DNA of 64,000 nt from Blautia sp. Its GTDB lineage: Bacteria; Bacillota; Clostridia; Lachnospirales; Lachnospiraceae. The stretch spans positions 1 to 64,000 of the forward strand of contig JALEJS010000049.1 in NCBI GenBank assembly GCA_022769545.1. Reading direction: 5' to 3'. Position 1 is the stretch's first letter, and each line of letters begins with the position of its first letter. The position numbers and the translations under genes were made by a program. Of this stretch, positions 459 through 23,734 are shown piece by piece. Under the pieces are notes generated by a model that was not told the origin of the DNA, made no database searches, and was given only the letters and a program-made list of their open reading frames with translations.

Positions 459-920
459 CTAGTACAGTTTTGCACCAGCCGGAATATGGTTATCTACCAT
501 AAGAAGGTGAAGCTTCTCTTCTCCCTCCTCTGTATGAATTGCAGAAAGCAACATACCGTTAGATTCAATTCCCATCATCGCTCTTGGCGGAAGGTTTGTG
601 ATCGCGATCAAAGTTTTTCCAACGAGTTCTTCAGGCTCATAGAATGCATGTATTCCGGAAAGGATCGTACGGTCTTTACCTGTTCCGTCATCCAATGTGA
701 ACTGAAGGAGCTTCTTGCTCTTTGGAACTGCTGCGCACTCTTTAACTTTAACTGCTCTGAAGTCTGATTTCGAGAATGTCTCGAAGTCAACACAGTCAGC
801 GAAAAGTGGCTCGATCTCAACTTTAGAGAAATCGATTACTTCTTCCACCGGTGCAGCTGCCGGAGCTGCTGCCTGAACAGCATTGTTTGCCTCATTCTTT
901 GCAGCACCCTGTGTCTTCAT
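459..920 (-). CDS. lysS (3' fragment): Orphan C-terminal tRNA-binding (EMAP-II/Trbp111-type) domain of lysyl-tRNA synthetase
   Basis: The protein has 153 aa. Residues 1-40 are an Ala/Pro-rich linker and residues 43-153 form an OB-fold tRNA-binding domain like the C-terminus of MetG, Trbp111 or CsaA (segments SGIHAFYEPEELVGK, PPRAMMGIESNGM, IPAGAKLY). Its first codons, Met-Lys-Thr with upstream Pro-Thr, lie inside the 18-bp repeat shared with the end of lysS at 22255-22272 and are in the same frame. Joining the two would give one LysS of about 645 aa, which I recall as a usual form in Lachnospiraceae. It is therefore the 3' part of lysS cut off by the element. The ATG used is an internal codon of the old gene. 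The best Shine-Dalgarno, AAGGTG at 943-938, is element-derived and 17 bases away, so translation may be weak. A stand-alone MetG domain is less likely given the in-frame junction. Confidence 0.85.
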   Translation of the reverse strand: MKTQGAAKNEANNAVQAAAPAAAPVEEVIDFSKVEIEPLFADCVDFETFSKSDFRAVKVKECAAVPKSKKLLQFTLDDGTGKDRTILSGIHAFYEPEELVGKTLIAITNLPPRAMMGIESNGMLLSAIHTEEGEEKLHLLMVDNHIPAGAKLY

Positions 921-928
921 CGTCGGGA
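911..928. repeat. attL, 18-bp core
   Basis: The sequence GTGTCTTCATCGTCGGGA is identical to 22255-22272. On the minus strand it encodes the lysS codons Pro-Thr-Met-Lys-Thr. This is the left attachment site of the element. Confidence 0.85.
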
Positions 929-1045
929 GATAAAAAACACCTTATTTCTTATATCTTCATTAGTCTCCATTAGGCTGTTTTTCTGCATTTCTACATTTTC
1001 CCGCAATCCGATATATGTCCAAAAGTCTTTTAAAAATTGAACAAA

Positions 1046-1078
1046 TTGGTACAAAATTGGTACAGGATTGGTACAAAA
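1046..1078. repeat. Left-end 11-bp repeats, probable integrase arm sites
   Basis: Three contiguous 11-mers start at 1046, 1057 and 1068: TTGGTACAAAA, TTGGTACAGGA, TTGGTACAAAA. The period is close to one helical turn. Two more copies in the same orientation lie at the right end (22169-22190). Their position about 120 bp and 80 bp inside the two att cores fits arm-type binding sites of a tyrosine integrase. That role is inferred from position. Confidence 0.65.
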
Positions 1079-1117
1079 CCAAAGCAGATAAAACACGCTT
1101 CAAACCATACCACGTAT

Positions 1118-2302
1118 TTATTCCTTTTCGATCTTCAATTCCGGATTAATGCGTTTCAAGAATAAATGGAATTGCGGAACAGTAAAATCAATCTCACCAT
1201 GTGCAGGAGAATATATCATACCTTTGCTAATCAGCTGGGCTCTTATAGGCGAAATAGTGCTTACCCTATTCCCCATTATTTTTGCCACATTCGAGATTGT
1301 ACATGGCAGATCTCCGCATTTTGCCATCGCAAACAAAAAATCATGCTCTTTCTTCGTGCAGCGATCATATCTCACTTTAAAAAAGCCCTGATCAAGATTT
1401 GTCTGAAACGTAGGAATAACCCTCTGCACGTCTTCCTTAGTAATAATTTCTTTTTCTGTATATTCCCAAACGGTATCACATAATTCCTGGATAAAGTATG
1501 GATAACCCTCACTCCATTTCTTTATCTCATTCACTGCTTCATCTTCAAATAAAACTCCCAAGTCTCTCGCCGGTTCTACAATCGCTTCCGTAGCAGCTGT
1601 GTCTGAGAGCTTTGATACCGGAATATATTTGAAAAGACGTTCCGCATATGACTTCACCTCTCCCAGTATCTTTAAAATCTTCGGCAATCCTGCGCCAAAA
1701 ATGATAACAGGAAGTCTAAGCTGGTTCACGCGGTGCATTGCATTCACTAATGCTTCCATTTCGTCTACTTTCATATACTGCATCTCATCAATAAAGAAAC
1801 ACACCGTTTTCCTTGCCTTCGCCGCCAGTCTTCCCATTGCAACGAACATTTCCGTCAAGTCATCTGCCAAAATTCCAGTAGTAATATAAGCAGAGGGTTC
1901 TGTCATTCCCGCTGTAAACGTCTGATCTTCCGGATTATAGGTTACCTGAAATGCCTGCAAAATCCCCAATGCTTTTTTCCCAAAATCCTTAGCCGATTCT
2001 ATTGCGCTCATCCGGTGAATAAGTTTCTTCGATGCATTTGCAATTTGTATAATAAAACTTTTCTTCTCAGCGATTTCTATATGGGCATATAAAATATTTA
2101 AGTCCTCCGCCTGTTCTTCAACAGCATTCAGCAATACTGTTTTACCCACGCCACGTAAGCCATAATAAACAACCGAATTCTGAGGATATCCTTTTACAAC
2201 GGCCTGCAAAACTTTTTCTGCATTTTCCAGCATTTCATTTCGTCCAGCCAGATAACGCGGCATTGCTCCTGCCCCGGGTGTATACGGTGATGCATATTTC
2301 AT
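1118..2302 (-). CDS. AAA/STAND-like ATP-binding protein at the element's left end
   Basis: The protein has 394 aa and is soluble. Walker A is GLRGVGKT at residues 48-55 and Walker B is VCFFIDE at about 167-173. The C-terminal third looks like a winged-helix domain. The layout resembles archaeal-type or ORC/STAND-like P-loop ATPases that are common in bacterial mobile elements. The gene lies directly inside attL, downstream of the integrase and on the same strand, with the integrase terminator between them. Possible roles are element maintenance, a DNA transaction, or defence, and the sequence does not decide. The start is the Met of MKYASPYTPG, preceded by AAAGGAGGAG about 8 bases upstream. 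Nothing looks truncated. Confidence 0.75.
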   Translation of the reverse strand: MKYASPYTPGAGAMPRYLAGRNEMLENAEKVLQAVVKGYPQNSVVYYGLRGVGKTVLLNAVEEQAEDLNILYAHIEIAEKKSFIIQIANASKKLIHRMSAIESAKDFGKKALGILQAFQVTYNPEDQTFTAGMTEPSAYITTGILADDLTEMFVAMGRLAAKARKTVCFFIDEMQYMKVDEMEALVNAMHRVNQLRLPVIIFGAGLPKILKILGEVKSYAERLFKYIPVSKLSDTAATEAIVEPARDLGVLFEDEAVNEIKKWSEGYPYFIQELCDTVWEYTEKEIITKEDVQRVIPTFQTNLDQGFFKVRYDRCTKKEHDFLFAMAKCGDLPCTISNVAKIMGNRVSTISPIRAQLISKGMIYSPAHGEIDFTVPQFHLFLKRINPELKIEKE

Positions 2303-2382
2303 AATAAAGGCTCCTCCTTTTCTTTTAAATCAATTATATCCTAAATCCCCCAGTGGTACAAGACACTCTTTCAGACATAATT

Positions 2383-2416
2383 AAAAAGGACATTTCCATA
2401 ATCCCGAAAATGCCCT
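2383..2416 (-). terminator. Terminator after the integrase gene
   Basis: On the minus strand AGGGCATTT (2416-2408) pairs with AAATGTCCT (2395-2387), with one G-U pair, and is followed by a T5 run. The stem begins seven bases after the integrase stop codon. Confidence 0.7.
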
Positions 2417-2422
2417 TTCATT

Positions 2423-3661
2423 TTATGCGCCTTTTTTATTCATTTTTTTCTGCAGTTCTGCAAATTCTTTCTGTTTCAATTCCTTTGTCGCATCTGCGTA
2501 GATATTCAGAGTCGTTTTCACATCTTTATGTCCCAATACATCCTGTATCACTTTTATATTTACCCCTTCTTCAATCAGCCTCGTTGTAAAGGTATGCCGA
2601 AGAGAATGACAGCTAAAGTTCGGAAGCAAGACCGGATTTGCCATATTTTTTTCCAATTGAGAATCGTTACAATCCCTGATGATCCTTCTCAGCGCTTTGT
2701 TTAATGTTCCCTGATGCTGCACAGAACCAAATCGATTTACAAAAATGAAATCCGAATAACCATCAACCGTTACATTGCATTGAATCCCATTCTGTTCCTG
2801 ATATCTCTTCTCTTCCAAAAACGCTTCTTTTACGTAATCCAGCATAGGGATTATTCTGTTTCCCGCCACAGTTTTTGGCGTATGTATATTAAAATAGCAG
2901 CCATCCTGAGCATGATTATAATAAACGAGCGTATGGTTCACGTCTATCATCCCCTCTTCCAGATCAATATCGCACCATCGAAGCCCTGTAATCTCTCCGA
3001 CACGCATACCCGTGCCAATCATAACCGCAAAAACAGGATACCAGTGATGGTACCTTGTTTTATCAGATCTTAAGAAATCCATGAAAAGATCCTGTTCCGG
3101 ACTCGTTAATGCTTTCTTATGAACCGCCTTTACATTACGCGACAGTTTTAATTCCTTTAGAGCATTATCCGAAACATTCATTCGCATATACCCATCTTCC
3201 ACTGCAACATCAAGTACCTGATGCAGCACTGTATGAATACTATCTACTGTTGACATTTTCAAATTTCTTTCATCAACAAGCATATTGTAAAACCTTTTAA
3301 TATCTGATTTTCTTAATGTCTGGACTCTAAAGCACCCCAGATTATCGCGCACAAACATATTATACATATAGCAGTAATTCTGGTATGTATTATCCTTTAA
3401 TCCCCGCTTCATATTACACCAAAGTTCAAATACATCATTTATTTTCACATTCTTCGCCTCTGCAAGAATACCGTCACACTTATCCTTAATAATCAGATCT
3501 TCCTTTTCGCGCAGTTCTTCCAGTGTTTTTGCGGTCACACTGTGTCTTTTCCCATTCCGTGTTGTCCAACGATATGTATAATATCCGTCAGCTCTTTGTG
3601 TTTCTCCTGTTCTTAATACTCTGCGCTTATCATCCATTCGCCTGTTTGTTTTAATTGACAT
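2423..3661 (-). CDS. int: Tyrosine recombinase/integrase (Tn916-type)
   Basis: The protein has 412 aa, the usual length for Tn916/phage-type integrases. It has an N-terminal arm-binding region (about 20-60), a core-binding SAM-like domain (about 70-180), and a catalytic domain (about 185-400). The catalytic residues are visible: R220 in GTGMRVGEI, H352 and R355 in HSLRHTF, H378 in LGHKD, and the nucleophile Y388 in LNIYAD. It should catalyse integration and excision between the 18-bp att cores. The Xis gene lies 66 bp upstream on the same strand, and a terminator follows the stop. The gene is complete, so the element could still be active. Confidence 0.95.
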   Translation of the reverse strand: MSIKTNRRMDDKRRVLRTGETQRADGYYTYRWTTRNGKRHSVTAKTLEELREKEDLIIKDKCDGILAEAKNVKINDVFELWCNMKRGLKDNTYQNYCYMYNMFVRDNLGCFRVQTLRKSDIKRFYNMLVDERNLKMSTVDSIHTVLHQVLDVAVEDGYMRMNVSDNALKELKLSRNVKAVHKKALTSPEQDLFMDFLRSDKTRYHHWYPVFAVMIGTGMRVGEITGLRWCDIDLEEGMIDVNHTLVYYNHAQDGCYFNIHTPKTVAGNRIIPMLDYVKEAFLEEKRYQEQNGIQCNVTVDGYSDFIFVNRFGSVQHQGTLNKALRRIIRDCNDSQLEKNMANPVLLPNFSCHSLRHTFTTRLIEEGVNIKVIQDVLGHKDVKTTLNIYADATKELKQKEFAELQKKMNKKGA

Positions 3662-3727
3662 ATTTTTTTCTCCTGATATTTTCTATTACGGAGAAGCACA
3701 GGTACACCTGTACTTCCCGCTTTTCTA

Positions 3728-3928
3728 TCAAATTGAATAGGATTCTTCCAGAAAATGTTCCAGTTTCCGACGCTTAAACATCCGTTTGGTGCCGTTCCAC
3801 AGCACAAATTCGCATCTTTCGCCGGAACTAATATCACGAAGTTTTTGCATTCCAAGCCCTGTATAAGCCGCCGCTTCCTCCAACGTTAATGTAGCTTTTT
3901 CCCAGATCGGGATTTCTTTATTCTTCAT
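3728..3928 (-). CDS. xis: Excisionase (Tn916 Xis family)
   Basis: The protein has 66 aa. It is a small basic winged-helix DNA-binding protein whose order of motifs (IPIWEKATLTLEEAAAYTG near the start, then WNGTKRMFKRRKLEHFLE) matches the Tn916 Xis family. It should bind near the att ends and direct the integrase to excision. It sits directly upstream of int on the same strand, the usual xis-int order. The start is preceded by AAGGAGG 5-6 bases upstream. Confidence 0.88.
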   Translation of the reverse strand: MKNKEIPIWEKATLTLEEAAAYTGLGMQKLRDISSGERCEFVLWNGTKRMFKRRKLEHFLEESYSI

Positions 3929-3980
3929 ATTATCCTCCTTCGTTCATTCCCACCGTTCCCACGGTTCCCACTTTTTGTAC

Positions 3981-5816: not shown

Positions 5817-5895
5817 ATTTTCCTCCTTCGTTTTTTGTACTTTTATTTTATACCCGAATAATATAAATTAGTATTTCATATATGATATACATATA

Positions 5896-7673: not shown

Positions 7674-8297
7674 TCAGGAAATCTCTCCATTTGTAGTCTT
7701 TTCTATATCAGACAGCGCAAAATCTATTCCTTTATAAATCCGCACCGGATTCCCCCGGACGATCCGGTAATGTTCTCTCCATGCATTGTTTACCTGCATC
7801 TTTTTCTCTTCTGTTTCTTTATGCATGAGGATCACCTTCAATTTCTCCAGTGCGTCTTTCCTGTTCAGGTACTGGCTTCTCTCAGAAGTGGATGTTACAC
7901 TGATCCCGGTTGGAACATGTATCAGTCTTACTCCGGTCTCGACTTTGTTAACATTTTGTCCCCCTTTTCCGCCGGAATGAAACCGTTCAAACCGCAGGTC
8001 CTTCTCCTCCAGCCTGTAATCTCCTGTTTTCATCTTCAGAACACTTACATCCACATACCAGTTTTTTCTTTTATGCTCCGGCCGGAACGGGCTTTTACAC
8101 ACCCACTGCACGCTTCCCTCCAGTTCGGACAGATCCTGATCCGTCGAAAAGATGATCGATGTATAACAGTCTTTTCCTGTCTGGCGGCAGGACAGCTGCC
8201 GGATATCCGGGTATTCTTCCTTCAGCGCTCCAAACAGTTTCCCTACAGCCAGCTCACATTCTTTCGGCCCCTGTCCGGAACTGATCTGCAAAACCAT
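7674..8297 (-). CDS. prfH: Peptide chain release factor homolog RF-H
   Basis: The protein has 207 aa. It is a class I release-factor-like protein that keeps the peptidyl-tRNA hydrolysis domain but lacks the codon-recognition domain. The GGQ motif is at 112-114 in the context GGKGGQNVNKVETG, followed by a basic tail. RF-H is reported to act with a partner RtcB ligase on ribosomes whose 16S decoding centre has been cut by ribotoxins, releasing the stalled peptide so that the rRNA can be re-ligated. The gene starts 19 bp after the rtcB stop on the same strand, which is the conserved rtcB-prfH arrangement. It ends near a bidirectional terminator. As cargo of a mobile element it probably protects the host from rRNA-cleaving toxins. 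Confidence 0.92.
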   Translation of the reverse strand: MVLQISSGQGPKECELAVGKLFGALKEEYPDIRQLSCRQTGKDCYTSIIFSTDQDLSELEGSVQWVCKSPFRPEHKRKNWYVDVSVLKMKTGDYRLEEKDLRFERFHSGGKGGQNVNKVETGVRLIHVPTGISVTSTSERSQYLNRKDALEKLKVILMHKETEEKKMQVNNAWREHYRIVRGNPVRIYKGIDFALSDIEKTTNGEIS

Positions 8298-8316
8298 TGC
8301 TTCACGCCTCCTCTCT

Positions 8317-9456
8317 TCATGATCGGCTACTTCCTGCCTTATAATTATATAATGGTTTTAGCAATGCCTCTTCCTGAACGGTTTCTCTGACCGCCTCCTG
8401 TATTTCCAGTCCCCGATAGGCAAACGGGCTCTCATCCAGCGTCTCTTTACTGATACAGGACGAATAGATTCCCTTCATCTCTTTTTTGAACGCTGAGACT
8501 GTATAGCGCGCAGAGACCTCGGTTCTTTTCAAGATCCTTCCTGCCCCATGCGGTGCAGAATAATTCCATTCCGGGTTTCCCAGTCCCCGTCCAAGGATTA
8601 TGCCGTCCCGCATATTGATCGGGATGACCACCTGTTCCCCTTCTCTGGCCGAAACAGCCCCCTTTCTCAGTATGCAGCCCTCCTTTCCCTTCTCCACATA
8701 ATTATGGATACAGGAGAAGGATTCCAGCAGTTTCCATTTCATTCCCTTACAGAGGATATCCAGCATCGTCTTTCTGTTCAGCGCAGCGAATTCCTGTACC
8801 ACCTGCACATCCTCCAGGTATCGGTCCATGATCGTTCCCTCCAGCCAGGTCATCTCATACGGAACCAGAATTCCTTTCTGCTTCAATTCTTCCTGTCCTT
8901 TGGCAAGATAATACTCCGCTACTTCTTTTCCAAGATGCCTGCTCCCCGAATGGATTGCCAGATAATGATTTCCATCCTCATCCTTATCCACCTCTATGAA
9001 ATGGTTTCCTCCGCCCAGCGTCCCAAGGCTCAATGCCGCCTTTTCTTTACGGATCTTCTCATAGCAGTCCAGCCTTGAAAGATCAATATCCTCCATATAA
9101 TGATGCGGGTTCTTCCGCAGGGAAAAGCCGGACGGGATGTTATCCCGGATCACAGCATCCAGTTTCTGGAATTCCATTTTTTTCGTTTTGATCTTTCCCA
9201 TCGTCACACCGCAGCCGATATCAATGCCCACCAGACCGGGCAGAATACGTCTTCCGACAGTCATCGTAAGTCCGATGGGTCCACTCTTTCCCGGATGGCA
9301 GTCCGGCATGATCCGGATACGGCTGTCTTTTGCTGCTTCGTTGTCACAGATCATTTTTATCTGTGCCGCCGTATAATCATCCATAGCAGTCTCCGGATCG
9401 TCTGCCGTAAAGACCACGGCATCTGCATATGTTCCATTTATCTTTCTTATGTTCAT
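8317..9456 (-). CDS. rtcB: RNA-splicing ligase RtcB (RtcB2-type partner of RF-H)
   Basis: The protein has 379 aa, on the short side for RtcB and typical of the prfH-linked type. It has metal-binding and guanylylation motifs: DCHPGKSGPIG (52-62), GIDIGCGV (77-84, Cys82), GGGNHFIEVD (148-157), HSGSRHLG (169-176), and APHGAGR (301-307), where His303 is the expected site of GMP attachment. It joins RNA 2',3'-cyclic phosphate or 3'-phosphate ends to 5'-OH ends using GTP. It is followed by prfH after 19 bp. The pair most likely repairs cleaved 16S rRNA. Substrate assignment is by analogy with the described RtcB2-PrfH pair. Confidence 0.93.
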   Translation of the reverse strand: MNIRKINGTYADAVVFTADDPETAMDDYTAAQIKMICDNEAAKDSRIRIMPDCHPGKSGPIGLTMTVGRRILPGLVGIDIGCGVTMGKIKTKKMEFQKLDAVIRDNIPSGFSLRKNPHHYMEDIDLSRLDCYEKIRKEKAALSLGTLGGGNHFIEVDKDEDGNHYLAIHSGSRHLGKEVAEYYLAKGQEELKQKGILVPYEMTWLEGTIMDRYLEDVQVVQEFAALNRKTMLDILCKGMKWKLLESFSCIHNYVEKGKEGCILRKGAVSAREGEQVVIPINMRDGIILGRGLGNPEWNYSAPHGAGRILKRTEVSARYTVSAFKKEMKGIYSSCISKETLDESPFAYRGLEIQEAVRETVQEEALLKPLYNYKAGSSRS

Positions 9457-9486: not shown

Positions 9487-9576
9487 TCAGTTTAACAGTT
9501 CATCGCCTCTGTTCTTTCTAAACATTAATACACTCATCACATCTTCCAGTGTCATAAGATCATCCCATAGTTTCAT
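9487..9576 (-). CDS. Small ORF (29 aa) coupled to the resolvase stop
   Basis: A 29-codon ORF begins MKLWDDLMTLEDVMSV and ends RGDELLN. Its ATG overlaps the resolvase stop codon (TAATG on the minus strand), a classic re-initiation arrangement, and it ends 30 bp before the rtcB start. It is acidic-amphipathic and I know no family. It may be a real small protein or a chance ORF. Confidence 0.35.
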   Translation of the reverse strand: MKLWDDLMTLEDVMSVLMFRKNRGDELLN

Positions 9577-10190
9577 TACCGGGAAGTGTACCTCTTTACA
9601 AGTTCATAGAACGTTGTCCTTTTCAATCCCAGTTTTCCCATCATCTCAACAGCTGTGATTTCACCTTCCTTCCATTTCGCATAATATGCCTCCCATTGAT
9701 CCGGATATTCTGCTTTCGGACGCCCCAAATGTACCTTTTTCAACCTTGCAGCCTCGATCCCTTCCTTTTGCCTTTTCAGGATCATCTCCCGCTCTTGCTG
9801 TGCAATACTGGCCAATACTTCGATCAGTATATTATTGATCATATCCATAATCCATGACTGTCCTTCCGGTACTTCTATCATCGTTGTGGGAAGATCCAGT
9901 ACCATCAGCCGTATCCCGTTTTCCCGGAAATATTCCAGTTCTTTCTTTATATCACTTTTATTTCTTGACAATCGATCAAGTGAACATATGTAAAGGATGT
10001 CCCCCCTCCGTAATCCGAGAACACCTTTCAATGCCTGATAGGATTCTCTTTCCAGATTCTTCCCGCTGGCCTTGTCCACAAGAATGTTTTCCGGTTTTAC
10101 ATATTTTTGTAATTCTAATATCTGCCTGTCCAGATGCTGCTCTTTGCTGCTCACCCTTGCGTAACCGAATATTCTGTTTCCGCCTTCCAT
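9576..10190 (-). CDS. Serine recombinase (resolvase/invertase family)
   Basis: The protein has 204 aa. The catalytic domain has the motif GYARVSSKEQ near residue 9, with the nucleophilic serine in VSS, then SLDRLSRN at about 70-77. The C-terminal helix-turn-helix is at about 160-200, with a GRPKAEYP hinge. The length and layout fit small resolvases of the Tn3/Hin type. It lies inside the element rather than at an end, so it is more likely to resolve dimers or invert an internal segment than to integrate the element. Repeated TTTACGGA motifs just upstream (10235-10324) are candidate res sites. The start is preceded by a GGGAGGAAAA site. Confidence 0.9.
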   Translation of the reverse strand: MEGGNRIFGYARVSSKEQHLDRQILELQKYVKPENILVDKASGKNLERESYQALKGVLGLRRGDILYICSLDRLSRNKSDIKKELEYFRENGIRLMVLDLPTTMIEVPEGQSWIMDMINNILIEVLASIAQQEREMILKRQKEGIEAARLKKVHLGRPKAEYPDQWEAYYAKWKEGEITAVEMMGKLGLKRTTFYELVKRYTSR

Positions 10191-10234
10191 TTTTCCTCCC
10201 TGGCAAATGAAAAATGTTCGTAAAACCCTGTGTT

Positions 10235-10324
10235 TTTACGGATATCTCCGTAAATCTTCCCATAAGTTTTTAGAATACATTTTTCTCTGGTTTTATCATA
10301 TCCGAAAAGGTGTACCTTTACGGA
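10235..10324. promoter_or_regulatory. TTTACGGA inverted/direct repeats upstream of the resolvase gene
   Basis: TTTACGGA-TATC-TCCGTAAA (10235-10254) is a palindrome with 8-bp arms, and a third TTTACGGA lies at 10317-10324. The cluster fills the 174-bp gap between the resolvase gene and the Rad52-like gene. Candidate functions are a res recombination site or an operator. Confidence 0.45.
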
Positions 10325-10364
10325 TGCGCTTACATGTAATAAAATTCCCCTACGTCCCCTTTCT

Positions 10365-11114
10365 TTATGCTACATATGCATCCTTTGTTTTTTCCAAAGC
10401 CTCCAGGGCACGCTCACCCAATATTTTGCTTAATTCTCTGATGTTACTCACCTGATACCGCTCACAAATCTGTTTTTCGCTTACTCCGGTTCGCTCCATC
10501 TCTTCCATCAGTTTTCTTTCCTGCACATAGGTAATACGGTCCGTATTTGCAGAATGTTTTTTCTTATCCTCCACCGATTCTGAATGACTGACGGTATTTT
10601 GATTGTAAGAATAGACAACCTCTTTCCTTTGATTCACAATCTGCAGGCGGCATATATTCTGCCTTTCATCATACGCAATCCTTTCTACTCTGAAACGGTC
10701 TTTTGTCACAAATCGTCCCTTTTCATTATGGATTTCCACTTTCTCTGCCGGAACCCAGATTAACGGAGCTGTATATAATTCCCTCCCGATTCCCCAGTTA
10801 AAACAGGCCCGTTTAAATGCATCACTGGCACTGCCTTTTACCGGCTCTGCAAGCGACGGTGTTCCCACATCCTGCTTGCTGATCCATTCCCCGTTTTCAC
10901 TGCGGATACTGACGGTACAGAACAAGGCTTCTCCCATAAATACATGCTCCCGTTTCCATCCATATATCCCAAATGTTTCATCCAAGATATTCTGATCCAC
11001 ACGGGCATCCTTATAAAGGAGAAGTGTTACCCCCTTTGCGGACACCGATGCAACCCGGCATTCAATCTCATCCGATCTCAATAACCGGATTTCTTTTTTA
11101 CCCTCTTCTTTCAT
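10365..11114 (-). CDS. Rad52/Rad22-like single-strand annealing protein
   Basis: The protein has 249 aa. The N-terminal half (1-160) carries the Rad52-type signature: a GYKxxYV-like segment IYGWKRE followed by GSASDAFKRACFNWGIGREL at about 95-114. Phage and element proteins of this type (Sak/Rad52 group) anneal complementary single strands for recombination. The C-terminal third is charged and probably protein-binding. The ATG overlaps the stop of the DUF5688 gene (ATGA), so the two are translationally coupled. With the YqaJ-type nuclease upstream it forms an exonuclease-annealing pair comparable in logic to lambda Exo-Beta. Confidence 0.82.
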   Translation of the reverse strand: MKEEGKKEIRLLRSDEIECRVASVSAKGVTLLLYKDARVDQNILDETFGIYGWKREHVFMGEALFCTVSIRSENGEWISKQDVGTPSLAEPVKGSASDAFKRACFNWGIGRELYTAPLIWVPAEKVEIHNEKGRFVTKDRFRVERIAYDERQNICRLQIVNQRKEVVYSYNQNTVSHSESVEDKKKHSANTDRITYVQERKLMEEMERTGVSEKQICERYQVSNIRELSKILGERALEALEKTKDAYVA

Positions 11115-12073
11115 CCTTTTCTCCTTCTGTTTCTTCCGTTTTCATCACAGATACCAAATTCTTTTTTATCACGGTCATAACGATACACATGATATGATAA
11201 CCGCTCCTCCGGAGGGACCAGTGTATTGTTCACCGCCTTCAGGCATTCACGTATTTTCCGGATATCCAACTGTCCTTCTGCATGTATCATAGCTTCATGG
11301 ACACTGGTAAACGCAATCAGGAAACTTCCATTCAGAAGCTCTGCGATCCTTTCTGCCACTCCGGGAAGAAATACCGCAGCCGCTCCATCCGATTTTCTGG
11401 CCGTCGTAAGACATGTTCCAGGATATTTCATCATTACACGCATGTCAGGATCCGCGTCCATAAAATCTTCCCCCTGATATTCTTCAGGCCCGGACCACAT
11501 TCCTTCCATACAGAAAAAACGAGGTGGTGCCATTGCTAATGTATTCTTCATTGCGGTCTGAAGCAGTTCTTCCGGAGCAACTCCCCATAATTCCGGATAT
11601 TCCTTTGTAACCATTATACTGACCAGAGAATCCCCCGATTCTCCAGCCCGAAAATACAGGACCAGTGCAATATCCCCCACCGAACAGAAGACTGCATCTG
11701 CAAGCTTCTCCCTGTTCCAGTTCTCATTCATTGGACGAACGAACAGATCCTTTTTAATCTTTCCATAATCCTTCATATCTGCTGCTCTTAAAATATATTC
11801 TGACTTTTCCACACGGCACACTTCTTCCATAATTCCAGCTGCGATATCTTCCATCCGGCATCCGCTCAGATACCGTTCATAGAGATTACGGGCGAATAAT
11901 CCGATTGCCTCTTTCGAACCTTCCCGTTCTGCAACGACAACAAACAGGCGGTCTCCCTTCAATGCAGGAACTTCCCCCTCCCTTTTGAAATAAATGCGTT
12001 TCTGATCAAAGCCTGTTTCTTTTGCCATATATCCGGTCAGTTCCTTTACAAATTCCATATATCCCATCGTCAT
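11111..12073 (-). CDS. DUF5688 family protein
   Basis: A 320-aa soluble protein resembling the DUF5688 family of Lachnospiraceae mobile elements, whose function is unknown. The start is taken at the ATG at 12073 because GGAGG lies eight bases before it. An ATG five codons upstream (12088) has a worse ribosome site. The body has alternating helical segments and no catalytic motif that I recognise. It is coupled by ATGA overlap to the Rad52-like gene and is separated from the YqaJ gene by a terminator, so it may be transcribed from its own promoter or by read-through. Confidence 0.7.
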   Translation of the reverse strand: MTMGYMEFVKELTGYMAKETGFDQKRIYFKREGEVPALKGDRLFVVVAEREGSKEAIGLFARNLYERYLSGCRMEDIAAGIMEEVCRVEKSEYILRAADMKDYGKIKKDLFVRPMNENWNREKLADAVFCSVGDIALVLYFRAGESGDSLVSIMVTKEYPELWGVAPEELLQTAMKNTLAMAPPRFFCMEGMWSGPEEYQGEDFMDADPDMRVMMKYPGTCLTTARKSDGAAAVFLPGVAERIAELLNGSFLIAFTSVHEAMIHAEGQLDIRKIRECLKAVNNTLVPPEERLSYHVYRYDRDKKEFGICDENGRNRRRKG

Positions 12074-12097
12074 AATCTTTTCCTCCATTTCTCCACG

Positions 12098-12133
12098 AAA
12101 AAAGGAAGAAACAGAATTTTATCCGTTTCTTCC
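12098..12133 (-). terminator. Terminator between the YqaJ nuclease and DUF5688 genes
   Basis: On the minus strand GGAAGAAAC (12133-12125) pairs with GTTTCTTCC (12112-12104), followed by T6. It sits in the 112-bp gap between the two genes and may end or attenuate transcription of the upstream DUF932-YqaJ operon. Confidence 0.7.
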
Positions 12134-12185
12134 TCTTCTTTTAATATATATACTCTCATTCCAATAAAATATTTCTCCAGATGCT

Positions 12186-13115
12186 TCATGCTGCTTTTAC
12201 TGTCAGCCGCCTGCTCTGGGTTGTTTTCAGATATTCCCGGTAGATCTCCGGTTTTTCCAGTTTCAGCCGGTCCATATCCATGCGGTTCGTAGAAATATTC
12301 TTCCAGGTTACCCGGTATCCTTCCCCTTCGGCGCACTCTGCCCCTCCAAGATATAGTTTCAATTCCTGGTCGATTTTCCTTTTTTCCATGTCCATCTTAT
12401 CAATCAGTGCAGATAGTTCCATACGGCGCTCAATCTGTTCTTTAAACCCGGACAAAAGGATCGTTTTCCCAGTCTCTGCTTTCTGAAAGTTTTTCAGGAT
12501 CAGTTCATCCGATGCCTCTGACCCATCCGGGGCAGGCATGACCCTCTTTTCAACATGGTTCTTCCAGAAATCCCCTTCCATTTCCCGCAGATTCCGGATA
12601 ACCGTTTCATCCCTTGTCAGCTTCCGAATAATAAAATCCCGCCCGAAAATCAGGGCTGAAATATACCATTCCTCTGCATGGAATACAGACATATAATGGT
12701 AGCACTGCAGCTGATAATGAACCGGAACCTTTCCGTTCTTCCACTGGTCTGCATTGTACGGGCTGACTGTTTTGCACTCCAGGCCCGCCGGTTTCCCGAT
12801 GATCAGACGGTCCGCATCTGCCAGCATATATGGGTGCTCCTCATCATAAAAGATAGCATTTGCCCGGCGAACCCTCATTCCAGTCTCTTCCATAAAGCGC
12901 CTTGCCACATAATCCTCCAGATCACGCCCCTGTTTCATGGCTTCATTATCTTCCATACTGATTTCATCAGATATCTTATCATAATAAACCTTCAGAGGAC
13001 TGCTGTAGGGATTCAGTCCGCACACTGCCCCTGCATCAGAACCGCCAATCCCCCGTTTCCGGAACCTCAGCCATTCTTCTCTGTTAAGGTTTGCTGTGGA
13101 CACCAGTTTTTTCAT
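12186..13115 (-). CDS. YqaJ-type recombinase exonuclease
   Basis: The protein has 309 aa. It is a lambda-exonuclease-fold (PD-(D/E)XK) phage-type nuclease. Visible features are the N-terminal GIGGSDAGAVCGLNPYSSP (about 20-38), the Asp/Glu residues in LADADRL, the GLECKT motif, and YQLQCYHYM. It should digest one strand of a DNA end to give a substrate for the annealing protein encoded downstream. I chose the ATG at 13115 over a longer upstream reading because GGAGG lies ten bases before it and because its ATGA overlaps the stop of the gene upstream. Confidence 0.85.
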   Translation of the reverse strand: MKKLVSTANLNREEWLRFRKRGIGGSDAGAVCGLNPYSSPLKVYYDKISDEISMEDNEAMKQGRDLEDYVARRFMEETGMRVRRANAIFYDEEHPYMLADADRLIIGKPAGLECKTVSPYNADQWKNGKVPVHYQLQCYHYMSVFHAEEWYISALIFGRDFIIRKLTRDETVIRNLREMEGDFWKNHVEKRVMPAPDGSEASDELILKNFQKAETGKTILLSGFKEQIERRMELSALIDKMDMEKRKIDQELKLYLGGAECAEGEGYRVTWKNISTNRMDMDRLKLEKPEIYREYLKTTQSRRLTVKAA

Positions 13116-13447
13116 GAAGCCGCCTCCTCCGTATTCTCCACATAAGCATGTATCAGTTTCCCGGCGGTTCTTCGAATACATCTTCCCAGCTCGACAGAAA
13201 AAGAATCTGCTTCCTTCGTCCATCTTCTGTATAAGTATTCCAGAAGATCCGGAAAGATGATCAGTATCGACAGATCTTCTTCCGGCCATTTCTTCGCAGC
13301 TTCCGTCACGGTATCTATGATTTTTTTCATACAGTTCACCTTATAGGCACTTTGTATGATAACCGTTTTCTCCTGCTCCATCAGCTTCCTGCAAAACAAT
13401 TTATATTCCAGCTCCATCTTATTCTTCAGCAGTTCCCTGTTATCCAT
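13112..13447 (-). CDS. Small helical protein, DUF3848-like
   Basis: The protein has 111 aa and is mostly helical. The pattern of leucine and aromatic positions in the first half (MELEYKLFCRKLMEQEK...SAYKV) resembles DUF3848 proteins, which occur beside recombination genes in Clostridia elements. The match is from memory and weak. It overlaps the YqaJ nuclease gene by four bases (ATGA), and its start is preceded by GAGAGGAGG. It probably belongs to the same recombination operon. Confidence 0.6.
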   Translation of the reverse strand: MDNRELLKNKMELEYKLFCRKLMEQEKTVIIQSAYKVNCMKKIIDTVTEAAKKWPEEDLSILIIFPDLLEYLYRRWTKEADSFSVELGRCIRRTAGKLIHAYVENTEEAAS

Positions 13448-13526
13448 TGTATGTTCCTCCTCTCACCTTACGGTCATAAAGTCTTACCGTCTTCCTTTTT
13501 GTTTTTTGACCCTTCTCCAGAACCAC

Positions 13527-14459
13527 TCATGCTGCCTGCAGTATCTGATATGCTCTGTCGATCAGCGGGTTCCCATCGATCGTTCTGGAAAAAAGATTCT
13601 CTTTATAATTTTCTGTTTTTCTGAGCGGTCTTGCATGGGTGGCAAAATCACTGACCGCATTGATAAACCGGTAGGCATTCTTTCCCACATCCTGCAGGTC
13701 CGGTGCATCAAAATACCGGCACTTCATATCTTCCTGAAGACGCTGCATATTTTTTTCCTGTGTGGAGGATGCCCCGCTTTCTATCGGGAGCAGTACCTCA
13801 ATGTAATCCAGCACCTGCCGGTCTGTCAGTTTTATCCTCCGGAGCGCCTCAAATTCCTTTCCAAGACTGTCCATGTATTTTTCTGCCATGAACAAAGTCT
13901 TCCCTGCTTCCTGTATTTTCCCCTGAATATTTCCGGTATGTATCAAAGACCAGGAACGGCTGGCAGTTGACAGGGCCAGATTCAGCGTATTGCAGCATAC
14001 CACCCTCACCGGGGTTAGTGCCACCTTGACCGCCCCGGAACCATCATGGGTATTTGAGAAAACCAGATACGGGCTGATCCGCTCCCCGGAAATAATGTAC
14101 TCATGTGGAAGCCGGGCAAGGAGCCACACTCTTTTCCCGTTTTGCAGAGATCCTGCCGTTTCATACTGTACACCCTCTCCCAGTAATTCATCTGTAAAAG
14201 CAAACGCTTCCTCGTTCTGGATCACCTTATACCGGTCCGTCACGACTCCCAGTATTCTTCGGTCAAAATCCCTTACATTTGCTTTATAACCCTGAATCAG
14301 TTCCTCTGATCCGGTGTGGATCGGTTCCTGGACTACCTTCCAGTCAAGTCCTGCTAAGATAAGTGCTTCTTTTGAACCGGGAGCTTCGGCCACCCGTGTT
14401 CCCAGACCATGCCACGGCGTCTCCCTTACATAAAACATACTCTCCACTTCTGCTGCCAT
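13527..14459 (-). CDS. DUF932 phage/plasmid-like protein
   Basis: The protein has 310 aa. The N-terminus FYVRETPWHGLGTRV is characteristic of the DUF932 / TIGR03299 family of phage- and plasmid-borne proteins. Mid-protein segments RVVCCNTLNLAL and SRSWSLIHTGNI also match the family. Its function is not established; members often lie beside recombination or replication genes, as here. The start follows GGAGG by eight bases. It heads the recombination operon with the DUF3848-like and YqaJ genes. Confidence 0.85.
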   Translation of the reverse strand: MAAEVESMFYVRETPWHGLGTRVAEAPGSKEALILAGLDWKVVQEPIHTGSEELIQGYKANVRDFDRRILGVVTDRYKVIQNEEAFAFTDELLGEGVQYETAGSLQNGKRVWLLARLPHEYIISGERISPYLVFSNTHDGSGAVKVALTPVRVVCCNTLNLALSTASRSWSLIHTGNIQGKIQEAGKTLFMAEKYMDSLGKEFEALRRIKLTDRQVLDYIEVLLPIESGASSTQEKNMQRLQEDMKCRYFDAPDLQDVGKNAYRFINAVSDFATHARPLRKTENYKENLFSRTIDGNPLIDRAYQILQAA

Positions 14460-18918: not shown

Positions 18919-18946
18919 ATTATCCTCCTAAATCCCATAATCCCAA

Positions 18947-19120: not shown

Positions 19121-19234
19121 CCCCCACGCCTTCCTGTTACTAATATTTTTATAGTTATAAATAATTATACTATATCTATAAAAATATTACAATTAGAACA
19201 AATTATTTATGGATTGATTTAAGGATTGATTTTT

Positions 19235-19555: not shown

Positions 19556-19559
19556 GATA

Positions 19560-19856
19560 TTATTTTTCATCCCAGAGTTTTCCACATTCCATCAGTAAAT
19601 TTACTGCATATGTGAATCCACAGAGGAATCCTGTCTTTTCAGAAATTGTCAACAACTCATATAAAGAATCCGACAATTCGTCATCTGCCATCATTTTTTT
19701 ATGAGCAAATCGTTCTATTATGCCCAGAACTTTTTTCTCACTTTTTTTGCGATTATTCTGAATAAATTCCGTTTCCTGTATTGTCTGATATATGTTATCA
19801 AGAATATTTTTCATATGTATTTCCACTTCCTCCTCGTTCATTTTTATCTCATTCAT
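19560..19856 (-). CDS. Small helical protein, DUF6809-like
   Basis: The protein has 98 aa. Residues 15-23 (MKNILDNIY) and the end (GFLCGFTYAVNLLMEC) follow the pattern of DUF6809 proteins, which often start at that internal Met. The true start may therefore be 19814. It has no known function and stops four bases after the convergent XRE gene. The match is from memory of the family and is weak. Confidence 0.55.
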   Translation of the reverse strand: MNEIKMNEEEVEIHMKNILDNIYQTIQETEFIQNNRKKSEKKVLGIIERFAHKKMMADDELSDSLYELLTISEKTGFLCGFTYAVNLLMECGKLWDEK

Positions 19857-19952
19857 TTATACCGTTTCCACCTGCAATTTAGAGAAATCAAGCAGAAGGA
19901 TTTCTTCTGCTTGACCAGCTTCTACAACTTTCCCCTTCAGAATGCAGTTGTT

Positions 19953-20267
19953 TTATCCCGGAAAATCGGCGGTTAAGTTCCGCAAGGTGGCTGCTATCTC
20001 ATTCGCCGCATTTCTGGCATTTCCAATGCAACGCAGGATGATTAGCAAAGAGTTATTATCATCATTTTCTCTTAGAAAATCCTTCATTACATCCCACGCG
20101 TCACTTAGTTCGGTGTATACTTCTTGCCATTCGCATATCCAATTATTGTCTTTACATTGCTGCAACCGCTTTTCCCATTCTTCCTCACAAACTTCAAATG
20201 ATTTACACAAATTTGTTTCTGAAAAATCATCCGATAAATTTTGCAAAAATAATTCAGACAGATACAT
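19953..20267 (-). CDS. Unknown small acidic protein
   Basis: A 104-aa acidic, helical protein with several Trp and Cys residues (EEEWEKRLQQCKDNNWICEWQ at about 28-48). It has an excellent ribosome site (GGGAGG, six bases before ATG). It lies upstream of the DUF6809-like gene on the same strand with a 96-bp gap. I do not recognise it. Anti-restriction or accessory roles are possible but unsupported. Confidence 0.6.
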   Translation of the reverse strand: MYLSELFLQNLSDDFSETNLCKSFEVCEEEWEKRLQQCKDNNWICEWQEVYTELSDAWDVMKDFLRENDDNNSLLIILRCIGNARNAANEIAATLRNLTADFPG

Positions 20268-20810
20268 TTTTTACCTCCCAATAATTCTTATTTTTCTCGA
20301 AATCTACTTCTAAAAATGCAGTAAAGGTGTCACAAATTCTTTTTTTCCTAGATAATTCATTTTTCACACTCAAATGTAGATATCAAGATATTATTTTTTT
20401 ATCATATTCTGACCGAAAAAAATGTCGAATATGGTTTCATATCCGTACTTTCGTCAACGCTTTTCTACGCTTTTTCGAGATATTCTAAGAAAACGCATAT
20501 GAGACTTAACATGCGATTCCAGTTATCAAAATCACTGCACATACTCGCAAAACGTTTATCGCAACTGGAAATAGGACTCCCGCAAAGATGAGTCTGTCAT
20601 TCCTCACCATTTATAGCAGTAAAAGACTTTTTCACCTGAAATAAGCACTTTTCAGATTCTTTCTTCCGCTTACAAACGTCTCTATCCTTTTTATACATAT
20701 TCCAGAAGTCGCTATGCTACATAAGTAGTTTCTATTCAAAATTTTTCATCTATATTTATACTTTTCAATACCACAAAATAATTTTTCACAACACAACAAA
20801 CCATTAAATA

Positions 20811-20858
20811 AAGCATAGCAATATGTGCAGTCTCTTTTTGGACCACACCGCTATGCTT
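20811..20858. repeat. 9-bp inverted repeat near the mob genes
   Basis: AAGCATAGC (20811-20819) and GCTATGCTT (20850-20858) are perfect complements separated by 30 bases. It is a candidate relaxosome binding site in the presumed oriT region. Confidence 0.4.
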
Positions 20859-20891
20859 GCTTGGATATCCCTCAGGAATCCATATTATTAG

Positions 20892-20935
20892 GGACCGGAC
20901 CCCAAAGGAGTCCGGATCCTATAAAAATTTTTTTT
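20892..20935 (+). terminator. Terminator-like hairpin just before the mob ribosome site
   Basis: CCGGAC (20895-20900) pairs with GTCCGG (20910-20915), with extra pairing outside, and a T8 run follows at 20928-20935. Only five bases later comes AAAGGAG, the ribosome site of the MobC-like gene. This could attenuate transcription of the mob genes. Confidence 0.55.
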
Positions 20936-20950
20936 GAAAGGAGTAATTAC

Positions 20951-21271
20951 ATGGAAGAAAAAACAAAAATAATTAAAACTCGTGTTACGCAGGCAGAATA
21001 TGAAAAGGTTAAGGAAAAAGCACTGGAAAATAACATTTCTATCAGCGAACATCTAAGACATAATTTACTGTCTGCCCAACCAATTAATCCATTATACAGC
21101 AGCTCCGTCCACGATTATATGGTTTGCATCATGATATGCCGTGACCTGCTTGCCTCGCAAAACAATTCTCATGTTGATCCACAGGAATTGCGCAAAAGAA
21201 TGGTTTCAATTTTAGACAAGGAGTTGGTAATGTTATGGCGTATCTTAAATTCGTCCCAAACAAATATTTGA
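20951..21271 (+). CDS. MobC-like relaxosome accessory protein (ribbon-helix-helix)
   Basis: The protein has 106 aa. The N-terminal ribbon-helix-helix pattern (IIKTRVTQAEYEKVKEKA, then ISISEHLRHNLL) matches MobC-type mobilization proteins, which bind oriT and help the relaxase. The start is fixed by AAAGGAG eight bases upstream; an upstream in-frame extension runs through the terminator hairpin and is unlikely. The gene overlaps the relaxase gene by 37 bases. Confidence 0.78.
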   Translation: MEEKTKIIKTRVTQAEYEKVKEKALENNISISEHLRHNLLSAQPINPLYSSSVHDYMVCIMICRDLLASQNNSHVDPQELRKRMVSILDKELVMLWRILNSSQTNI

Positions 21272-21795
21272 CAAGTAACGATGTAAAAGCATTATTAAAT
21301 TATTGCATATCTCCTGATCGGAATCCCTATTACACTTCCAGTATTGCACACAATAGCTATGACGAAATAGAATATTATACTTTCAATTTCTGCTATCCTC
21401 ATTTTTATCATCACAAGCAAGGAAAAACCATATGCTACCATTATGTACTTTCCTTTGATCTGAACAATGAAATATCAAGGTTGGAAAAACTTTCTCTGGA
21501 TTCGCTCTTTTGCTATTTGGGTACCATGCCTGAGGTAAAAGGCCTGAACTTATTTTTCAGCGTTCACAGAACCAAATACGGATTACCCAAACATATCCAT
21601 ATCCTGGTCAGTTCAACCAATCCGGACAGCGGAAAATCTGCCTTCATCAATTTTGAATGTTTAAAATATCAAATTGGAGAGATTTTGGCAGATTTCAATA
21701 TTGCATTAGCCGGATACAGCTATTGCACTGCAAACGGTTATATAAACCGCGGTAATTATTCTCCCGAAAATCTTTACCTGGAGAATTTCCTGTAA
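21235..21795 (+). CDS. mobA: Compact MOBP-type relaxase
   Basis: The protein has 186 aa, much shorter than usual relaxases of 300 aa or more. Motif I looks like ALLNYCISPDRN, with Tyr23 as the probable nucleophile. The three-histidine motif is clear: H111, H120 and H122 in GLPKHIHILVSSTN, with a conserved Asn at 129. The family should nick oriT and stay attached to the 5' end. The protein seems to hold only the catalytic domain, with no primase or helicase tail. It overlaps the MobC-like gene and is followed by a strong terminator. A relaxase without coupling-protein genes in the element supports mobilization by a helper. Confidence 0.78.
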   Translation: MAYLKFVPNKYLTSNDVKALLNYCISPDRNPYYTSSIAHNSYDEIEYYTFNFCYPHFYHHKQGKTICYHYVLSFDLNNEISRLEKLSLDSLFCYLGTMPEVKGLNLFFSVHRTKYGLPKHIHILVSSTNPDSGKSAFINFECLKYQIGEILADFNIALAGYSYCTANGYINRGNYSPENLYLENFL

Positions 21796-21798
21796 TTT

Positions 21799-21832
21799 AA
21801 CACAGAGGGTAATTCATTTTACCCTCTGTGTT
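21799..21832. terminator. Bidirectional terminator after the relaxase gene
   Basis: AACACAGAGGGT (21799-21810) and ACCCTCTGTGTT (21821-21832) form a 12-bp stem between the convergent relaxase and HTH genes. Its right arm overlaps the last codons of the HTH gene. Confidence 0.75.
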
Positions 21833-22002
21833 TCCCGCCTGACATAATCAATGATTTCTTCTTTCGCAACTTTCCAGTGTCTTCCTTCTTTATATCCCTT
21901 TAATTTACGTTCACGCAATAAACTGTATAATCTGCTTTTTCCAATTCTTAATGCTTCACATGCTTCCTCAACGGTCATCACGCTTTCATACTGTTCAAAC
22001 AC
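21814..22002 (-). CDS. Small HTH DNA-binding protein (excisionase/MerR-like)
   Basis: The protein has 62 aa. The helix-turn-helix pattern SVMTVEEACEALRIGKSRL, then YKEGRHWKVAKEEIIDYV, is of the HTH_17 / excisionase-like type. Its start has AGGAGGTGA upstream. It lies 250 bp from attR. It could be a second directionality factor, a regulator of mob or int genes, or an unrelated regulator. The element already has a Tn916-type Xis at the other end. Confidence 0.8.
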   Translation of the reverse strand: MFEQYESVMTVEEACEALRIGKSRLYSLLRERKLKGYKEGRHWKVAKEEIIDYVRRETQRVK

Positions 22003-22090
22003 CTTAAATCACCTCCTGCATTTAATAAAATGTTTTAAAAATGAAATACGCCCTTCCATGTGATTCACTTTTTCATATGGTTATTCACCC

Positions 22091-22130
22091 AAAAAAGTCC
22101 GCAGGCTGTACGTCACCTGCGGACTTTTTA
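22091..22130. terminator. Bidirectional terminator near attR
   Basis: AGTCCGCAGG (22096-22105) and CCTGCGGACT (22116-22125) form a perfect 10-bp stem with A6 to the left and T5 to the right. It isolates the element's right end from transcription in either direction. Confidence 0.75.
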
Positions 22131-22168
22131 TCATATCTCTTTAAAACTCTGCATATTTTTTGTTTTTT

Positions 22169-22190
22169 TTGGTACAAAATTGGTACAAAC
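22169..22190. repeat. Right-end 11-bp repeats, probable integrase arm sites
   Basis: TTGGTACAAAA (22169-22179) is followed directly by TTGGTACAAAC (22180-22190). These are the same repeat, period and orientation as at 1046-1078. Confidence 0.65.
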
Positions 22191-22243
22191 CACCATTTTT
22201 CGGCCTGGCAAAGGGGCTCCAAACCCTTGATTTTACTGGCTTT

Positions 22244-23734
22244 TTACTTGTCCAGTGTCTTCATCGTCGGGAAGAGCAGCACATCGCGAATCGCCGCACT
22301 GTCTGTCAGAAGCATGCACATACGGTCGATTCCGAAGCCGATGCCTCCTGTGGGCGGCATGCCGACCATCAGTGCATTCATGAAATCATCGTCGGTGGTG
22401 TTTGCTTCCTCGTCGCCCTGCGCGAGAAGCTCTTCCTGTGCCTTAAAGCGCTCCAGCTGATCGATGGGGTCGTTCAGCTCGGAGTAGGCGTTTGCCATCT
22501 CCCATCCGTTCATGAAGAACTCAAAACGCTCCACATATTCCGGATTATCCGGTTTCTTCTTCGTCAGCGGAGAAATTTCGATCGGATGATCCATAACAAA
22601 GGTCGGCTGAATCATGTGTTCCTCTGCAAATTCCTCAAAGAACAGATTCAGGATATCACCTTTCTTATGTCTTTCTTCATATTCCACGTGATGCTCCTTT
22701 GCAGCGGCTCTCGCCTCCTCCAGTGTGTGGATTTCATTGAAATCAACGCCGGAGTATTTCTTAACCGCATCCACCATGGTGATGCGCTCGAACGGCTTGC
22801 CAAGGTCCATCTCGATTCCGTTATATACGATCTTCGTGGTTCCCAGAACCTCCTGTGCCACATAGCGGTACAGGTTTTCTGTCAGATCCATCATGCCATG
22901 ATAGTCTGTATATGCCTGGTACAGCTCCATCAGAGTGAATTCCGGATTGTGGCGGGTATCCAGACCCTCATTACGGAATACACGGCCGATTTCGTAAACG
23001 CGCTCCATGCCGCCTACGATCAGACGTTTCAGATACAGCTCCAGGGAGATCCGAAGCTTAAAGTCCTCATCCAATGCATTGAAATGTGTCTCGAACGGTC
23101 TCGCGGAAGCACCGCCGGCATTTGCCACCAGCATCGGTGTCTCCACTTCCATGAATCCCTGTCCATCCAGGTAGCGGCGGATCGCACTGAGAATTTTGGA
23201 ACGCTTGATGAAGGTGTCTTTCACCTCCGGGTTCATGATCAGATCCACATATCTCTGGCGATAGCGCATGTCTCTGTCTGTCAGTCCGTGGAATTTCTCC
23301 GGAAGTACCTGCAGACTCTTGGAAAGAAGTGTCACCTCTGCAGCATGGATGGAAATTTCTCCGGTTTTGGTCTTAAAGACCTCACCGCGGATACCGATCA
23401 GATCGCCCACATCCAGCTTTTTGAAATCCTTATACGGCTCTTCACCCACACTGTCCCTTGCCACATAGGACTGAATCGTTCCCTGAAGATCCTGCACATG
23501 GCAAAAAGAAGCTTTTCCCATGACACGTTTGGACATCATTCGTCCTGCAACGGTTACGGTTTTGCCTTCCAGGCTTTCAAACTGATCCTTAACTTCCTGA
23601 CTGTGATGTGATACATCATATTTTACGATTTTAAAAGGATCTTTTCCGTTTGCCTGCAGATCCGCCAGCTTCTCGCGGCGAACCTTCAGCAGCTGGTTCA
23701 AATCCTGTTCCGGCTTCTTCTGCTGTTCTGCCAT
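22244..23734 (-). CDS. lysS: Lysyl-tRNA synthetase, class II catalytic core
   Basis: The protein has 496 aa. It has an OB-fold anticodon-binding domain (about 60-150) and a class II catalytic domain with motif 2 ([15 protein letters not shown]) and motif 3 ([10 protein letters not shown], then [10 protein letters not shown]). It charges tRNA-Lys in the cytoplasm. The protein ends MKTLDK; the last three residues come from the mobile element. Outside the other end of the element lies the missing C-terminal tRNA-binding domain in the same frame. The host enzyme thus seems to be in two pieces. The catalytic core has the normal length of short-form bacterial LysRS (about 500 aa) and should be active. 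It lies 67 bp downstream of greA in one operon. Confidence 0.95.
22255..22272. repeat. attR, 18-bp core inside the lysS 3' end
   Basis: Identical to 911-928. On the minus strand it covers the codons for Pro-Thr-Met-Lys-Thr of LysS. The next three codons, Leu-Asp-Lys, and the stop are supplied by the element. Confidence 0.85.

Follow-up and report, generated by a model that had tools for sequence, protein, structure and literature searches.

The stretch analysed here, 64,000 nucleotides of a Blautia sp. genome (GenBank assembly GCA_022769545.1, contig JALEJS010000049.1, positions 1 to 64,000 of the forward strand; hereafter the window), carries a lysS gene that a mobile element has split between the catalytic core of lysyl-tRNA synthetase (LysRS, LysS) and its C-terminal tRNA-binding domain (CTD), supplying the core with a new stop codon. 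The element is a 21.3 kb integrative element with a Tn916-type integrase and lies between exact 18-bp repeats in lysS. We consider it very likely that the codons for the LysRS motif LFPTMK serve as an attachment (att) site for elements that carry their own lysS 3' cassettes, of three types, and that the window element belongs to the third. Among such lysS elements, which include relatives of this one in other gut bacteria, the CTD is swapped, dropped or, it appears, supplied separately, and travelling DNA thereby appears to rebuild an essential enzyme.

Under the mechanism we propose, integrase-driven recombination at this site would join the host core in frame to the cassette of the element and would move the resident 3' end of lysS to the far element end, behind the integrase gene. 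A type I cassette, made up of a linker and a tRNA-binding CTD, would bring about a domain swap; type II would pair the stub with a separate CTD gene, located at another place in the element and served by its own ribosome site; and type III would consist of the stub alone. In the window, LysRS now ends in T-L-D-K, and the old CTD is probably a silent spare that excision would restore.

The split lysS gene of the window

The features that define the split gene are as follows.

398..429, minus strand: terminator-like hairpin of 14 pairs, 3' of the orphan, likely the original lysS terminator
459..920, minus strand: displaced LysRS linker and tRNA-binding domain (orphan CTD), probably silent (Pfam tRNA_bind)
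911..928: orphan-side copy of the att repeat (agrees with the published consensus at 12 of 13 positions)
22244..22254, minus strand: element-borne stub, completing T-L-D-K and the stop (from the sequence)
22255..22272: core-side att repeat, P-T-M-K-T codons within the LFPTMK motif (repeat search)
22244..23734, minus strand: lysS catalytic core (anticodon-binding OB fold and class II core), now with the element-borne stub end (Pfam and NCBIfam)

The core matches NCBIfam NF001756 and TIGR00499, both over cut-off. The exact repeat TCCCGACGATGAAGACAC (minus strand) occurs at 911-928 and 22255-22272 with a spacing of 21,344 bp, extends to 21 bp if one mismatch is allowed, and codes for P-T-M-K-T in the LysS frame at both copies. 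When the flanks are joined without the element, they form a single 643-codon frame with no stops. The repeats, the Pfam and NCBIfam matches and the joined frame bear out an earlier, sequence-only reading of this DNA, which had proposed that a mobile element cuts lysS between its catalytic core and tRNA-binding domain, that the two repeats encode the same five LysS residues in the same frame, and that the core gains a new stop after Leu-Asp-Lys, which we find to be supplied by the element stub. Insertion does not restore the target gene, the 643-codon frame being cut down to 496 codons. The window genome has one high-identity match to LysS, and its other matches are 27-38% identical. Inside the element, the stub is followed by the end sequence CCAGTAAAATCAAGGGTTT, which is also found after other stubs, and the stubs of different genera share a common end sequence around CCAGTA...GGGTTTGCGG. 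Just past the lysS terminator, at 176-372, a 50-60-bp unit with GTTGACCAAAATTCAAG is seen by eye to recur about three times in imperfect form.

The core-side attL, TTCCCGACGATGA, agrees with the published 13-bp consensus TTCCC[g/a/c]AC[a/g]ATGA at 13 of 13 positions. Since the att core matches the published lysS att site, the site itself is not new; LysRS here has a CTD, however, and the 'gene end' is thus a domain boundary. The sequence-only reading had set this insertion apart from the usual insertion at gene ends, which holds only in that the site of a CTD-bearing host is a domain boundary, the published site being near the gene end. Similarly, its view that elements usually restore gene ends and that this one does not applies to the window, where a stub is brought in, but not to other elements, which bring a whole CTD. 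It is scarcely credible that the arrangement is an assembly artefact of a metagenome bin: the window genome does consist of 50 contigs at 91% completeness, but the same layout is present in single-contig genomes, for example G017, G333, G344, G358 and G385.

Displaced domains and lysS forms in relatives

Relatives were compared in a genus sample of 64 genomes and a family sample of 397 genomes. A search of the genus sample for the CTD identified, beside many fused copies, 12 orphan CTDs with frames of 157-271 codons (rows of at least 68% identity, with short fragments in G009, G044 and G021 excluded), and a Tn916-type integrase precedes all 12 on the same strand. The distance from integrase to orphan is 2.9 kb in contig 138 of G001 and 1.5 kb, with one gene between, in the window. 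Those genus orphans that have a legible site start at CCGAC[AG]ATGAAR; the orphan of G016 has none, the site having been lost. Over all loci compared there are 157 distinct CTDs, of which 94 are fused, 61 unfused and 2 cut, and an integrase lies within 2.6 kb upstream on the same strand of 44 of the 61 unfused CTDs as against 0 of the 94 fused ones; att codons are present in 56 of the 61. Among the matches listed and pairable, all 23 orphans on the same contig as lysS (in 19 genomes) are downstream of it and on the same strand, the core being short in 5 of these 19 genomes, the window's included. Orphans can be stacked, three in G208 and two each in G017 and G135, and stub tails are likewise displaced behind integrases (G051, G033).

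Genus cores gave a match in 50 of the 64 genomes and a usable frame in 47, 28 fused and 19 short, at least three of the short frames (G030, G050, G055) running into contig ends. In the family sample, at the thresholds used, a LysS-type CTD was found in 142 genomes and a LysS core in 347, and the LysS frames among the matches listed fall into two size classes of about 485-570 and 636-730 codons. Uninterrupted lysS frames of about 640-700 codons, which the sequence-only reading had predicted at about 645, do occur in relatives. Relatives with a short LysS also exist; that reading regarded element-free ones with a separate tRNA-binding gene as telling against it, but in those inspected LysS stops at this same att site, in several cases within an element-like end. 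Some short-LysRS genomes, for example G046, G051 and G020, have no lysS-type CTD at the threshold used, and absence of the CTD thus looks tolerated. The att pattern by itself is weak, with 43 matches in the 64 genomes versus 19 for a reversed control (our sums), and several extra matches, those in G020, G011, G057 and G059, were not att sites on inspection.

We note some further forms of the locus. The last 32 CTD codons occur in isolation, at 94% identity, in L056 and L051 (G009:C4:2573447-2573542 and G044:C15:52054-52149), possibly marking a further att site close to where lysS truly ends. In L241 (G409:C33) a LysS core is followed by the CTD in another frame, and a frameshift in the linker seems to cut the domain off. 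A different tyrosine recombinase gene (Phage_integrase, Phage_int_SAM_5) is directly downstream of the short lysS of L067 (G038:C71). Fused LysS with the same CTD type and cores 54-55% identical to that of the window is seen in L147 and L168 (uncultured Phascolarctobacterium) and L176 (Erysipelotrichaceae), where binning errors are possible. LysS-type CTDs also turned up in phage and plasmid collections, in short faecal 'phage' records that lack annotation and in a few records labelled as plasmids, which were left uncounted as possible bacterial contamination; MT839044, with integrase, att and CTD, was set aside for the same reason. In viral contigs the CTD matched twice and the stub once, and at least two of these three matches are lysS itself.

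Exchange of tails between cores

Pairwise comparisons show that tails have been exchanged between cores. Among 3,636 CTD pairs for which both host cores are known (the pairs are not independent), CTD DNA is more than 10 points more alike than core DNA, with a four-fold identity above 0.62, in 79 pairs (42 distinct CTDs), and the reverse, near-identical cores with different CTDs, is seen in 63 pairs (21 distinct CTDs). For example, G009 and G044 are 97% identical in core DNA and 78% in CTD DNA, and G003 and G034 are 94% and 72% identical, respectively. The clearest case is that of G001 and Clostridium sp. CAG:678, which share 96% identity over the CTD DNA (four-fold 0.83 of 53 sites) and 95.6% over 228 bp past the stop, while their cores are 62% identical (four-fold 0.33). 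Their identity jumps from about 0.6 to 0.98 at CTGTTCCCCACAATGAAA, which is the att site, and the same break at att is observed between Lachnospiraceae bacterium GAM79 and both L150 and L135. A fourth inspected pair (Haloimpatiens) has a differing linker and a less sharp break. Because identity breaks at att and the DNA past the stop is shared along with the CTD, the travelling unit is the CTD together with the element end.

The orphan domain of the window and its probable silence

The window orphan continues the LysS frame from the same att codons as the core and matches Pfam tRNA_bind with an E-value of 6.7e-25. It is up to 88% identical to fused LysS C-termini of the genus and 36% identical to the MetG-like match of its own genome (the MetG label being our reading of matches at 35-44%), and it scores 110.4 bits against TIGR00399, the MetRS C-terminal domain, below the curated cut-off of 116.65. 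We therefore rejected its assignment as a MetRS-type domain, a MetG origin being the other outcome that the sequence-only reading had regarded as telling against it.

In a scan, none of the in-frame starts of the orphan had a Shine-Dalgarno (SD) match of at least 4 bases, and a promoter scan found no promoter-like site on its strand within 300-1300; the element-derived ribosome site that the sequence-only reading had thought possible is thus missing, and the orphan is most likely silent. Orphans in general are poor in such signals: among 51 orphans that derive from att and have an ATG at that site (repeats and 5 orphans lacking the ATG excluded), an SD is present at the att ATG in 2, as against 545 of 5,023 random ATGs, and at any in-frame start in 12, and a looser rule finds one in 67 of 86 fused lysS genes. 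That the orphan is expressed and acts in trans, so that the host runs a two-piece LysRS as the same reading had suggested, is unlikely here. The intact frame of the orphan, its similarity to stand-alone tRNA-binding proteins, and the pairing of free-standing CTD genes with a short LysRS in five relatives would fit such an enzyme, but the orphan lacks a ribosome site and a nearby promoter-like site, and an SD at the att ATG is rarer in orphans than at random ATGs.

Another idea, that integration and excision form a regulatory switch between fused and short LysRS, strikes us as quite improbable. The element has an excisionase-type gene, its empty site would be in frame, and vanD islands at the same site circularise (PMC8301612, PMC10765050). 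However, there is no sign of regulated excision, and in the loci compared elements are stacked up to three deep, where one excision cannot restore all the stacked orphans.

Free-standing CTD genes and related element backbones

CTD genes without att codons are present in five genomes, namely G443, G232 (two genes), G290, G327 and G166, all five of which have a short LysRS. In the first four genomes all five CTD genes show a 5-base match to the SD, the gene of G166 has AGGAG about 12 bases before its ATG (by eye), and -10-like boxes can be seen by eye before free-standing CTD genes. The gene lies downstream of lysS on the same strand, at 4.8-4.9 kb in G443 and G166 and at about 69 kb in G327. 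In G443 it stands behind ParA, ParB and RepA_N genes, and G443 and G232 share the stretch with the CTD gene at 95.7% identity over 6.1 kb, preceded in G232 by an integrase and a stub att. By eye, over half of the frames listed for the family are short, so a short LysRS in five of five genomes is by itself only suggestive of supply in trans; the better argument for such supply is the placement of the free CTD gene inside lysS elements. ParA/ParB-type genes follow lysS in both fused (G017, G044) and short (G028, G022, G051) genomes, the ParA proteins of G017, G028, G022 and G051 (that of G044 left out) being 34-51% identical; either cassette is thus carried by related backbones.

Weighing the proposed mechanism

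Several observations weigh against the mechanism proposed above. No excised form of the window element was seen. Seventeen of the 61 unfused CTDs have no same-strand integrase within 2.6 kb upstream; 6 of these have less than 1.3 kb of upstream DNA, 1 has an integrase 2.9 kb away, 3 are free-standing and 7 are unexplained. Orphans are not under relaxed selection, with a median omega of 0.097 versus 0.104 for the nearest fused CTDs (p 0.54), a value compatible with a short stay as an orphan and equally with function, and hence uninformative. The clade tests are mixed. In a tree set of 41 rows, comprising core group A (9 rows, 85-91% identical to the window core), group B (12 rows, 72-76%) and others, the CTD rejects A and B as clades, with approximately unbiased test values (p-AU) of 1.4e-7 and 0.011 for protein and 1.5e-5 and 1.1e-5 for DNA, and the core does not reject them (0.28 and 0.11). 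Yet neither A nor B is a clade in the best core tree, other organisms falling within both, and when the rows are restricted to A and B the CTD no longer rejects them (p-AU 0.53 for protein, 0.073 for DNA). As these two results weaken the clade test, the exchange claim rests on the pairs and not on the trees.

The A and B rows taken alone would also suit the explanation that CTDs were inherited with their cores and that the incongruence reflects stronger conservation of the CTD protein, as would the very high conservation of the CTD. The closest named CTD, L116 (an Oscillospiraceae metagenome-assembled genome), is 98% identical in amino acids with silent sites that are saturated, which likewise fits this explanation and is no sign of recent transfer; amino-acid identity was for this reason dropped as proof of transfer and DNA-level pairs were used in its place. 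We nonetheless find vertical inheritance very unlikely as a general account: silent-site identity is sharply higher in the core of some pairs and in the CTD of others, inspected pairs break at att, and element ends past the stop travel with the CTD. It is contradicted for the listed pairs and may hold for other lineages.

Class and contents of the element

Besides the lysS features, the following were identified in the element.

1046..1075: two 19-bp repeats (one exact, one at 89%), likely integrase arm sites (repeat search)
1118..2302, minus strand: AAA ATPase gene between integrase and orphan (Pfam AAA_16)
2423..3661, minus strand: Tn916-type tyrosine integrase (Pfam Phage_integrase and Integrase_DNA)
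20825..21271, plus strand: NikA-like mobilization protein (Pfam PF21983)
21235..21795, plus strand: open reading frame (ORF) of 186 residues, no match in Pfam or NCBIfam; a small relaxase is a guess
21814..22002, minus strand: excisionase-type small helix-turn-helix protein at the core-side element end (Pfam HTH_17; TIGR01764 over cut-off)
22169..22187: third, exact copy of the 19-bp repeat at the opposite element end, possibly of the same role (repeat search)

With a tyrosine integrase near one end, att-core repeats in lysS and an excisionase gene, the element is a lysS-site integrative element. The 19-mer TTGGTACAAAATTGGTACA, exact at both element ends and with one further copy at 89%, shows the pattern expected of integrase arm sites. 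The element is not an integrative and conjugative element (ICE) in the strict sense of carrying its own conjugation genes: a Pfam scan of 20 window proteins, 18 of which lie in the element, with small ORFs partly covered, found no type IV secretion genes, and no relaxase family was recognised among the window ORFs scanned with Pfam and NCBIfam. Given a NikA-like gene but no recognised relaxase or secretion family in the scanned ORFs, the element is likely mobilizable. It also harbors a gene for peptide chain release factor H (TIGR03072 over cut-off) adjoining an RtcB-type RNA ligase gene (7674-9456, minus strand), and a row of resolvase, Rad52-type annealing protein, DUF5688, YqaJ exonuclease and DUF932 genes (9576-14459, minus strand), a phage- or plasmid-like recombination block.

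Comparison with known systems

Phage and ICE insertions that replace gene ends include e14 in icd and SXT in prfC, where the element supplies the replacement end of an essential or conserved gene; these ends are short or near-equivalent and are not known to differ by presence or absence of a domain. Trbp111, MetRS beta, CsaA/YgjH and EMAP-type domains belong to the same family as the CTD by sequence and include stand-alone forms, but the window CTD is of the LysRS kind and resembles LysS tails much more than the MetG-like match of its own genome.

Streptococcal ICEs target the lysS 3' end (Ambroset et al. 2016, PMC4701971) and resemble the window element in having a tyrosine integrase, lysS as target and direct repeats of 13-17 bp. 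There the insertion is stated to modify the protein end very little, whereas here a whole folded domain is swapped, dropped or displaced. The same source describes rumA serine integrases of streptococcal ICEs, where integration likewise replaces the 3' portion of the gene it targets, so altering the C-terminus, though with a serine integrase, reciprocally with the integrase gene itself and with no domain cassette. The vanD islands Tn6711-Tn6713 and ICEVREfm_vanD sit in Enterococcus lysS and share the att consensus with the window element; circular forms of Tn6711 and Tn6713 were detected by polymerase chain reaction, and Blautia is named a possible source of the islands. Their site is 17 bp from the gene end, and the passages available describe no CTD cassette (PMC8301612, PMC10765050). 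In the literature searched, with subscription journals and preprints outside its reach, no report of CTD exchange at lysS was found. The lysS att site was already known; that elements related to this one supply a complete CTD in frame as a replacement was not described in the literature searched.

Implications

Insertion at the end of a gene is generally regarded as neutral, since the lost end is rebuilt. In the present case what is rebuilt is a folded domain that binds RNA, part of an essential aminoacyl-tRNA synthetase, and this domain is exchanged, lost or, as it appears, transferred to a separate gene. The resulting natural series of LysRS forms could be used to ask what role the appended tRNA-binding domain plays, and site-specific recombination may be a mechanism of domain shuffling in essential genes. 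Caution is also due with 'short' and 'long' LysRS annotations, which can reflect the resident element. Beyond this, we raise tentatively, as possible though on balance doubtful, that in Lachnospiraceae and other Clostridia the LysRS tRNA-binding domain belongs to mobile elements and not to the host. Elements would be rivals for a single att site and overwrite one another's domain, and some would have moved the domain to a gene of their own, making the host dependent on the element for full LysRS activity in a manner that may be addiction-like or may tune translation.

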